From assembly GCA_905480085.1 (NCBI GenBank), contig CAJQPD010000300.1, forward strand, positions 1-8,684: a stretch of DNA of 8,684 bases, in the 5' to 3' direction. Both the position numbers and the translations under genes were made by a program. The stretch comes from an uncultured Acidimicrobiia bacterium (GTDB taxonomy: Bacteria > Actinomycetota > Acidimicrobiia > Spongiisociales > JAENVV01). Of the stretch, positions 1,271 through 3,824 are shown in pieces (within the stretch, counting starts at the first letter, position 1; the number at the start of each line of letters is the position of its first letter). The notes under the pieces were generated by a model that had not been told where the DNA came from, ran no database searches, and saw only the letters and a program-made list of their open reading frames with translations.

Positions 1271-1936
1271 CTACCCGGCAGGTTGGATGACCAGGTCGAT
1301 GATGTGGGCTGCCGGGCGAAACACTTGTCGGCTGAGTGGAGATAATGCGGAAGCAGGGTGTGCGACCGGCAGGACGGCCCGTCCGGCGGTCAGGGCCGCT
1401 CGCGCCGCACGGGCGCACCCCACTGTCGTCCACAGCCGTTGATTGTGGCGGGCGACGACCGGGAGTAGCACACAGTCTGCGGTCTCGGCCGGTACCAGCG
1501 ATACGGGCGCGACATACTCGAGAAGGCCCCTTCGAAACGCCCGGCTACTGGTCCGCAACTCGGGGCTGGCCGCTTCGGTTACGGCCTGCAACACCGCCCG
1601 AGTTCCCGATCCCAGCGACAAGACTCCCAGGCTCGGGAAGCGGGCCGCCTCATAGGCCAGGTCCATCGACCAGCGCGGATCTTCCAGTCGACCAATCATT
1701 GCCTGCAGGGCCAAAGCAGTTCGGCCGGGATTCAAATCCATGGCAGCTTCGGTGACCGCCAGTAGGAGGGCCTGGTCGGACCTCCGCTTCCGGAGTGATT
1801 GCGCAGCGGCAACGCCAGCCTCCGCCCACGACACTTCAGTAAGTTCGAGCAATGCCTTGGCAGCCTTGATGGCTGCCAAGACTGGATCTGCCCATTCGTC
1901 GCGGGCTACGTCGTTGAGGGTCTCACCGGGGTTCAA
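1271..1936 (-). CDS. uncharacterised protein, faintly IF-2B-like fold
   Basis: I do not recognise this 221-aa protein with confidence. It is Ala/Leu-rich, probably cytosolic, with no signal peptide or membrane segment. Two stretches recall the IF-2B / methylthioribose-1-phosphate isomerase-like fold: GVLSLGSGTRAVLQAV (104-119), placed like the family's 'ThSrSstV..aL' strand-loop-helix, and ADCVLLPV followed by TTVGCARAARAALTAGRAV (153-160, 170-188), placed like 'aDlVlvGaDav...NkvGt..lAl.A...g.PV'. The key catalytic Cys and Asp pattern of MTR-1-P isomerases is not obvious, so any member would be divergent or non-catalytic. The proposed start is a TTG that overlaps the TGA of the OsmC gene (TTGA), implying translational coupling. 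No good Shine-Dalgarno sequence is present, and a later TTG (codon 20) is possible. The aminotransferase follows 65 nt downstream. The gene call is solid; the fold suggestion is tentative. Confidence 0.7.
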   Translation of the reverse strand: MNPGETLNDVARDEWADPVLAAIKAAKALLELTEVSWAEAGVAAAQSLRKRRSDQALLLAVTEAAMDLNPGRTALALQAMIGRLEDPRWSMDLAYEAARFPSLGVLSLGSGTRAVLQAVTEAASPELRTSSRAFRRGLLEYVAPVSLVPAETADCVLLPVVARHNQRLWTTVGCARAARAALTAGRAVLPVAHPASALSPLSRQVFRPAAHIIDLVIQPAG

Positions 1937-2403
1937 GGGGCTAATTGCAGTTCGGTCGTGATCTCGATGGAGTCTTGAATCGAGCGTGCCACCGGACAGA
2001 AATCGGCATGGAAGCCATGGACTCTTTCTGCGGTGTCGCGTTGGTCGCCTTCTACGCCTCTGAGCGTGTAGGTGACATGGATGCGTTTGATTATGAGGAC
2101 TTTGCCCTCTTTCTCGACCTCGCCGGTCGTCTCAGAGATCAGGTCCCCGTGTGATGCGTTGATGCCGCGCGCCTCCAGCGCGCCCCCGAAGGTTCCCGTC
2201 AGTCAACCGCCGGCGGCGGCAATCACGTAGTCAATCGTGGTGGCGTCTGGTGGGTATTCCTCAGGGTCGACGCCGTAATGCTCGGCGATGGCTCCGTGCA
2301 CTCCGAAGCTGATTGGCTCATCCAGGGACGGCATCCATACTTTGCGAATCGGGCCTCGAACCCGTTCGATTCTGACCTTCGAGGTGTACGCAACGTCGCT
2401 CAT
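1933..2403 (-). CDS. OsmC-family peroxidase-like selenoprotein (in-frame TGA read as selenocysteine)
   Basis: OsmC/Ohr proteins are small cytosolic thiol peroxidases that reduce organic hydroperoxides using a peroxidatic and a resolving cysteine. Here the ATG frame gives 66 codons ending DYVIAAAGG, then a TGA at 2203-2205, then 89 more open codons starting LTGTFGGALEARGI and ending at TGA 1933-1935. Read through, the product is 156 aa, the normal family length. The TGA falls exactly at the first conserved Cys (family pattern AA.GGCL.), giving Sec67. The second conserved Cys is present as Cys136 in FCPVARSI. Downstream codons keep the family's beta-strand pattern (EGKVLIIKRIHVTYTL), so this is not random sequence. 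A hairpin suited to a bacterial SECIS follows the TGA. The true stop overlaps the start of the next gene. There is no clear Shine-Dalgarno before the ATG. The alternative is a nonsense mutation or a sequencing error (TGC or TGT to TGA). Standard annotation would give a 66-aa fragment. Confidence 0.85.
2167..2183 (-). promoter_or_regulatory. candidate bacterial SECIS hairpin after the OsmC TGA
   Basis: On the minus strand a perfect 6-bp stem GCGCGC/GCGCGC (2183-2178 with 2172-2167) closes a 5-nt loop, UGGAG. The loop starts 25 nt after the TGA at 2203-2205. Bacterial SECIS elements lie within the coding region just downstream of UGA, with an apical loop about 16-37 nt away and a guanine in the first two loop positions. 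Spacing and loop G both fit. Because GC content here is high, a 6-bp GC stem could also occur by chance, so the hairpin supports the selenocysteine reading but does not prove it. Confidence 0.6.
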
Positions 2404-2963: not shown

Positions 2964-3824
2964 TCAATACCCGTACTGAGCGACAATCGATCCGTTGGCA
3001 TCCAGAAGGAAGCCGGTATCGCCTGCGTTATCCCATACCGGAGTGTCGTTGCACCAGTAGAACTCGGGTGACCGATCCGGCCCACAGCCTGTATAGAGAA
3101 CCAATGACTCTCCCGGGGCTATCAGAACTCCGGAACCGAACGTGTAGCGATGCACGGACGATTCGTCTCTTACGGTCCACTTGGATAGGTCGACGACGGT
3201 TGGGTGATTGGATTCGATAGTGACCCACTCACCATTCAGATTCTCGTTGTCTCGTCCGATGGCGTCGGCGTTGATCCCGGTGATGGTCACCTCAAAGTGC
3301 TCGGTTGACCCGCAGGCTGTCGAAGACCACATCCCGGTTTCCTCTTCCTGGGCAATCTGTTCTGCCCCGTCGAGTACCGCCTGCAACGTCGTGTTTGGCT
3401 CGTAGCCTCTCGCTAGGGCAGCGCCCTGCCGAACCAGTTCGGCATTCACGAAGACGTCACCCGACCATACGTACCCCAGGATGCGGCCGTATTGGTCGAA
3501 TTCCTCGACATCGGTACCCACCAAAACGTGTTGGCCCCCGATCAAGTCGTCGAGCAATGCGCGAGCTTGCCGACCGAAGCATTCGCCTTGTTCGGGGGAG
3601 TTGATACCAATCAGGCGTACCCGTTCCTCCTGGCCGTCAATCTCGACCCTGAAGGAATCACCATCCTGGACATACAGCACGGTGGCGGTTCTGGCTTCGG
3701 CCGGTGCCGGGGGAATCTCGAACGTGATGGGCTGAGGATCTCCCGAGCTAGCCGACGGTCGGGCCTGGGGGGATACACACGCGCCGGCGATAGTGGCGGC
3801 GAGGAGGAATCCCGCCGCTCTCAC
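2964..3824 (-). CDS. exported thermonuclease-like (SNase) protein with C-terminal lamin-tail-like domain
   Basis: This 286-aa protein has a short hydrophobic N-terminus ending in Cys16 (IAGAC), so it is secreted and possibly a lipoprotein. A Ser/Pro/Ala linker follows. Residues 45-170 match the staphylococcal nuclease fold, which hydrolyses DNA and RNA with Ca2+: DGD (54-56), VRLIGINSPE (69-78) and DQYGR (110-114). Equivalents of Arg35 (Arg70), Glu43 (Glu78), Arg87 (Arg114) and Asp21 (Asp56) are present. The Ca-binding Asp40 position is Asn75, a change that may reduce or alter activity. Residues 177-286 look like a lamin-tail domain (GEWVTIES, DLSKWTVRDES, IAPGESLVLYTG, DTGFLLDANG), often found attached to secreted nucleases. 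The GTG start overlaps the upstream flavoprotein stop (GTGA) and has AAAGGG 5 nt ahead. It is the last gene of the 5652-2964 operon. Likely role: extracellular nucleic-acid scavenging. Confidence 0.88.
   Translation of the reverse strand: MRAAGFLLAATIAGACVSPQARPSASSGDPQPITFEIPPAPAEARTATVLYVQDGDSFRVEIDGQEERVRLIGINSPEQGECFGRQARALLDDLIGGQHVLVGTDVEEFDQYGRILGYVWSGDVFVNAELVRQGAALARGYEPNTTLQAVLDGAEQIAQEEETGMWSSTACGSTEHFEVTITGINADAIGRDNENLNGEWVTIESNHPTVVDLSKWTVRDESSVHRYTFGSGVLIAPGESLVLYTGCGPDRSPEFYWCNDTPVWDNAGDTGFLLDANGSIVAQYGY

Follow-up and report, generated by a model that had tools for sequence, protein, structure and literature searches.

Genes and features of the locus

The window, by which we mean the whole stretch of 8,684 nucleotides analysed here from an uncultured bacterium of the class Acidimicrobiia, carries on its minus strand a gene of the OsmC family with a single internal TGA. 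From the start codon the reading frame is open for 66 codons, reaches TGA at 2205-2203, continues for 89 codons and ends at a TGA stop at 1935-1933. The first-pass annotation had described the same 66 and 89 codons around a TGA at 2203-2205 and left the strand unstated; read on the plus strand, 1933-2403 is, by eye, without sign of OsmC. The features at the locus are the following.

1933..2403, minus strand: predicted selenoprotein gene of the OsmC family, starting with ATG at 2403-2401 and coding for 156 residues before the stop if its single in-frame UGA is read through
2203..2205, minus strand: in-frame UGA at codon 67, predicted selenocysteine (Sec), motif A-G-G-U-L-T-G-T
2167..2183, minus strand: predicted bSECIS stem-loop of 7 bp with the apical loop GGA, the loop lying 26 nt past the UGA
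1996..1998, minus strand: TGT, encoding Cys136 in F-C-P-V-A-R-S, the candidate for the resolving residue
1271..1936, minus strand: downstream gene for 221 amino acids, no Pfam match, whose TTG start codon shares bases with the stop of osmC (TTGA)

Translational coupling across the TTGA overlap is possible; among the 18 other loci compared, the 221-amino acid gene is kept only in the congeneric locus L015. The neighbourhood comparison covered 19 loci (the window and L015-L032, several of them on short contigs), and the gene order around the window osmC is common only to L015. Apart from an antisense reading of osmC itself, which was counted as a recurring family in 13 of the 19, no neighbour family occurs in more than four loci: one is found in four (L019, L022, L027, L028) and two in three each (the window, L015 and L025; L018, L020 and L025). 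A search of the window against Rfam returned two matches only, with E-values of 5 and 6, both far below the cut-offs. Elsewhere in the window, positions 2964-3824 encode a staphylococcal-nuclease domain (Pfam SNase, 68 bits) fused to a lamin-tail domain (LTD, 65 bits).

OsmC family, fold and redox residues

The read-through product matches the Pfam OsmC family PF02566 from residue 57 to 151 with 47.4 bits, against a cut-off of 27.5; the alignment spans the TGA and bears out the family first assigned to the gene. Its AlphaFold model has a pLDDT of 94.6 and a full-length match to the OsmC fold. Scores against the two peroxiredoxin models TIGR03562 (OsmC, 16 bits, cut-off 85.8) and TIGR03563 (14.7 bits, cut-off 166.15) stay below threshold, and a single-sequence phmmer search of the PDB gave no match at E 0.01.

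Residue 67 aligns with Cys in all three PDB alignments of OsmC-family proteins that cover it (assessed by eye, at E-values of 0.06 to 0.45), and five homologous loci have TGC or TGT at this codon, so the TGA does stand where the peroxidatic Cys was thought to be. The second cysteine, Cys136, is likewise intact as proposed, encoded by TGT at 1998-1996. It aligns with Cys in four of five PDB alignments and is matched by Cys in all 121 rows of a protein alignment made of the query and the best 120 of 532 database matches. The C-P motif is present in all 78 homologous loci with TGA, in 77 by pattern and in L044 by eye at the end of a contig.

Conservation of the in-frame TGA

A set of 83 loci with a readable codon 67, the window included, was assembled from a scan of public genomes, from relatives, from the host order and from a phylum sample. 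The codon is TGA in 78, TGC in four and TGT in one, the residue 67 comparison with homologues thus giving TGA or Cys throughout; the partial matches L046 and L047, from which codon 67 is absent, were left out of the count. The 78 TGA loci represent 74 distinct gene sequences (L015 and G002 are one sequence, as are L017 and G055, and there are two further identical pairs), and the five TGC/TGT loci are among the most divergent, at 38-46% identity. The first scan of public genomes contributed 18 loci, all with TGA at codon 67. In the host order the gene was found in 22 of 138 genomes at E <=1e-20, each time with a single TGA, and the phylum sample gave 46 matches in 43 of 396 genomes, 41 of them with a single TGA; 40 of these 41 were read at the codon, one match (G143) being left out. 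Carriers of the TGA branch belong to at least six phyla as labelled in the databases: Actinomycetota, Thermodesulfobacteriota, Acidobacteriota, Chloroflexota, KSB1 and Spirochaetota. The distribution of the gene is nevertheless patchy, since no match to it was obtained in the congeners G003 and G004. Among viral contigs, 34 stretches fitted a pattern and none of them coded for a relative.

The congeners G001 and G002 also have TGA at this position, in genes with 19 and 30 differences from that of the window among 468 bases. Given its recurrence in these genomes and in 78 of 83 loci, the TGA is neither a chance event nor a sequencing error. Compared with these congeners, the window gene has a dN/dS after the TGA of 0.26 (0.018/0.070) and 0.28 (0.044/0.159), on 8 and 18 differences, and the segment therefore appears to be under purifying selection. 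That the gene is a pseudogene or the product of an assembly error can accordingly be dismissed with near certainty: decayed copies may exist in the family, L046 in another genome (G053) being a C-terminal half in a longer open frame, with neither N-terminal half nor Sec codon, but the TGA of the window is common to other assemblies and conserved in 22 of 22 genes of the order, and these observations, with the low dN/dS, already refute such an origin. As a control, 135 OsmC-domain matches were inspected in 59 genomes; TGA is found in only 16 of them, 13 belonging to the branch of the window and three to a second type described below.

Tryptophan, cysteine and leucine in database proteins

In the 121-row protein alignment, the Sec column holds 83 Trp, 33 Cys (query included), two Leu, one Ser, one Gly and one gap. 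Taken at face value, the 83 Trp among the best 120 of 532 matches favour a reading of the UGA as Trp under genetic code 4, or its suppression as a stop codon. The origin of these rows points elsewhere. They come from contigs with a median length of 1355 bases, only one of 83 exceeding 5 kb, whereas 15 of 30 Cys rows lie on contigs of more than 5 kb (three protein matches without a contig size are left out of this comparison). Moreover, the Trp rows intermix with the TGA loci in the tree. In a comparison of 76 Trp and 37 Cys rows, identity to a TGA locus reaches 91% for the Trp rows and at most 63.1% for the Cys rows. From the short contigs and this mixing we infer that Trp at the Sec column looks like TGA translated with genetic code 4. 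The named NCBI rows P0043, P0054, P0060, P0061 and P0063 have Cys at position 67, and in the window itself TGA is the terminal stop of seven of nine complete genes, osmC included, and is therefore not globally reassigned. Together with the bSECIS-like hairpin after the UGA and the Sec machinery of near kin, both described below, these points leave decoding as Trp or by suppression very improbable. The gene had been expected to be misannotated as a 66-residue fragment; such a fragment is not the only form in databases, the Trp-bearing proteins being a second, apparent misreading.

Two proteins have Leu at the Sec position and keep Cys136: P0007, from a 5.86 Mb contig and placed among TGA rows of the host order, and P0033. 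They possibly represent natural losses of Sec. The tree was built by a quick method under LG+G4 and does not settle 72 of its 187 inner branches. Identical proteins were removed beforehand, which reduced the locus rows from 83 to 78, as were a gapped row and seven Trp rows shorter than 150 amino acids. Most Cys rows form clades of their own, and P0100 adjoins the TGA locus L101. The number of Sec/Cys label changes is two with Trp rows uncounted and eight with Trp counted as Sec, no ancestral state being drawn.

A hairpin downstream of the UGA

The bSECIS model specifies a loop of 3-9 nt, a stem of 4-16 bp and a G in the first two loop positions, together with a spacing of 16-37 nt and an energy of at most -7.5 kcal/mol (PMC13188914). 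The hairpin of the window fits this model, with 2183-2177 paired with 2173-2167, the loop GGA, a spacing of 26 nt and -11.2 kcal/mol. For the family as a whole we used the 67 distinct 42-mers that follow the UGA in the 78 TGA loci: a fitting hairpin is present in 60 of the 67, as against 1633 of 6700 synonymous resamples (24%) and 162 of 1601 windows placed elsewhere in these genes, at codons other than the UGA. Seven of the 67 TGA sequences lack one, and one of the five Cys genes has one through another hairpin.

The excess of structure peaks at +13 to +36 past the UGA, with a mean z of -1.28 over the 67 sequences; next come -0.89 immediately ahead of the UGA, -0.52 across it and -0.71 next to the peak, and the remaining values stay within 0.4. 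In a stem-energy test, 41 of the 67 sequences are singly significant and 26 do not reach p 0.05. The window's own sequence has p 0.05 in this test and a z of -0.9 to -2.0 on dinucleotide shuffles. In five sequences two silent sites co-change, C21-G33 becoming U21-A33 with a shift in the register of the helix; these sequences are close neighbours in the tree, so that a single event may account for them. The consensus computed by RNAalifold is weak over all 67 rows (-2.7 kcal/mol) and reaches -11.9 kcal/mol when only the 55 C21/G33 rows are taken, the five U21/A33 rows being in the shifted register and a few others breaking pairs.

Selenocysteine machinery

The window's own assembly, 68% complete, contains selD (388.9 bits), but no selA and no SelB or tRNA-Sec above cut-off. 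The expectation that sel genes would be found in the same genome is thus borne out for selD alone, and selA, selB and tRNA-Sec are all present, together with the TGA osmC, in the congeners G001 and G002 (97% complete). At 68% completeness the missing genes are weak counter-evidence. Seven tRNA-Sec-like matches in the own genome remained below cut-off; three were checked and are tRNA-Ser (the best), tRNA-Leu and tRNA-Lys. The selD of this assembly (L014) is itself a predicted selenoprotein gene, with an in-frame TGA at 1857 on the minus strand (motif G-A-G-U-A-C-K) and a predicted hairpin past that codon.

Across 59 genomes, the own included, matches above cut-off were obtained for selA in 52, for selB in 51 and for tRNA-Sec in 47; judging by selA, decoding of Sec seems to be common within the order of the host. 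Twelve of the 13 genomes with a TGA osmC (own included) have selA and selB, and ten have tRNA-Sec. The three without a tRNA-Sec match are the own assembly, G010 and G055. In G010, rated 100% complete, the TGA gene, selA and selB are present, and the absent tRNA-Sec match counts against the Sec reading; the search scored only 59 candidates per genome under strict filters. In 50 further genomes, picked by their osmC codon, selA was found in 41 of 46 with TGA versus none of four with Cys, the five TGA genomes without a match being 60, 75, 79, 82 and 93% complete (the last G324). Separately, some SelB matches below cut-off (G046:C12:54628-55506, and those in G025, G026, G049 and G056), probably EF-Tu, have an in-frame TGA, TAG or TAA within the aligned stretch; these stops possibly mark the end of a gene or a fault in assembly.

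The aligned TGA and Cys codons of the homologues and the Sec machinery of the near-complete congeners support the initial proposal of a probable selenoprotein, and we consider it very likely, on sequence evidence, that the window osmC encodes one.

A probable branch apart from the catalogued OsmC-like selenoprotein

Selenoproteins of the OsmC family are already known, as the first-pass annotation had noted; the new part would probably be the branch of the window gene, which is probably not a member of the listed family. An OsmC-like selenoprotein was reported in 2005 from the Sargasso Sea with the motif UxxT (PMC1088965), listed again in 2008 (PMC2398784) and included in reviews of 2022 and 2026, the family being given as PF02566 or COG1765. 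The 2026 catalogue comprises 119 families and subfamilies, treats different Sec motifs as separate subfamilies and, in its accessible part, has OsmC only with UxxT. The literature consulted also comprises PMC9312934, PMC5029168, PMC1794560 and PMC12013277.

All 78 TGA loci share the motif U-[LM]-x-G-T, which in the window is U-L-T-G-T; the residue at +3 is always G and never T, so the published UxxT motif is absent. The NCBIfam model NF041052 (OsmC_like_Se, cut-off 95 bits) gives no match to the window protein at E <=1. A second TGA-bearing osmC type, with the motif G-L-U-M-L-T, occurs in three of the 59 genomes (L156 in G050, L157 in G048, L158 in G012), and NF041052 scores 158 bits on the G048 copy, the one that was scanned. 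Identity between the two types is 30% in an alignment of 47 residues. Most of the 115 database matches of the second type are 97-108 amino acids long and cover about 54-60% of the query, which would fit gene calls that begin past the TGA.

Judging by motif and model, the catalogued family most likely corresponds to the second, U-M-L-T type, and NF041052, from its motif, is probably the Sargasso Sea family of 2005. The window gene could still be a plain member of that family if UxxT had been written loosely, and it does share the Pfam domain under which the papers of 2005, 2008, 2022 and 2026 place the catalogued proteins. Such membership is improbable in view of the invariant U-[LM]-x-G-T, of a model that misses the window protein and recognises its U-M-L-T paralogue, and of G012, which carries both types. 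The U-L-T-G-T motif and the missing NF041052 match rather place the window gene in another branch, a probable new OsmC selenoprotein branch of broad distribution in which Sec would be the common state. We find it fairly likely that this is a second, uncatalogued family, usually with Sec, spread over at least six phyla and hidden because metagenome gene callers write Trp. The searches covered open literature without its supplements; within that scope no paper was found that names the branch of the window osmC, and for Acidimicrobiia together with selenocysteine a single paper, on a sponge microbiome, came up.

Proposed mechanism and comparison with known systems

Taken together, the evidence makes it highly probable that UGA67 is decoded as Sec, giving a 156-residue selenoprotein with an OsmC fold that belongs to a branch probably distinct from the catalogued kind. 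In the mechanism that we propose, tRNA-Sec and SelB would decode the UGA, recruited by the 7-bp stem-loop 26 nt downstream, and Sec67 would replace the peroxidatic Cys in the predicted OsmC fold. Its selenolate would attack a peroxide, probably an organic hydroperoxide, a selenenyl-sulfide would form between Sec67 and Cys136, and a dithiol partner, for example a lipoyl protein, would reduce it. Ohr chemistry uses lipoyl donors, and PDB titles among the structures listed by Foldseek mention dihydrolipoamide.

By analogy, the protein is likely a Sec-based peroxidase for organic hydroperoxides with Cys136 as the resolving residue. Sec may instead be inserted into an enzyme whose substrate is a different oxidant or a disulfide, or which handles selenium or sulfur; an identity of 10-18% to the solved OsmC/Ohr chains listed by Foldseek and the lack of a widely conserved partner gene in the 19 loci speak for such a role, which we regard as unlikely, though clearly less so than the alternatives above, against the retained redox positions of Sec67 and Cys136 and the full-length OsmC fold.

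A distinct OsmC branch would extend the prokaryotic selenoproteome, and its genes would probably be truncated or misread by annotation pipelines, the Trp rows being a warning on code-4 gene calls. Moreover, the natural Sec and Cys forms offer a pair with which to test what Sec gives to the OsmC fold.

In the Ohr/OsmC organic hydroperoxide reductases of known structure (2onf, 1nye, 1ml8 and others), the catalytic residue is Cys, and identity to the window protein is 7-19% over 31 structures; Sec67 and Cys136 would occupy their two redox positions. The second, U-M-L-T type has its Sec at the corresponding place of the alignment. Finally, the Cys form of the same branch, such as P0054 of Tenacibaculum (53% identity), is full-length and keeps the C-P motif, but has Cys at residue 67 in place of the predicted Sec.
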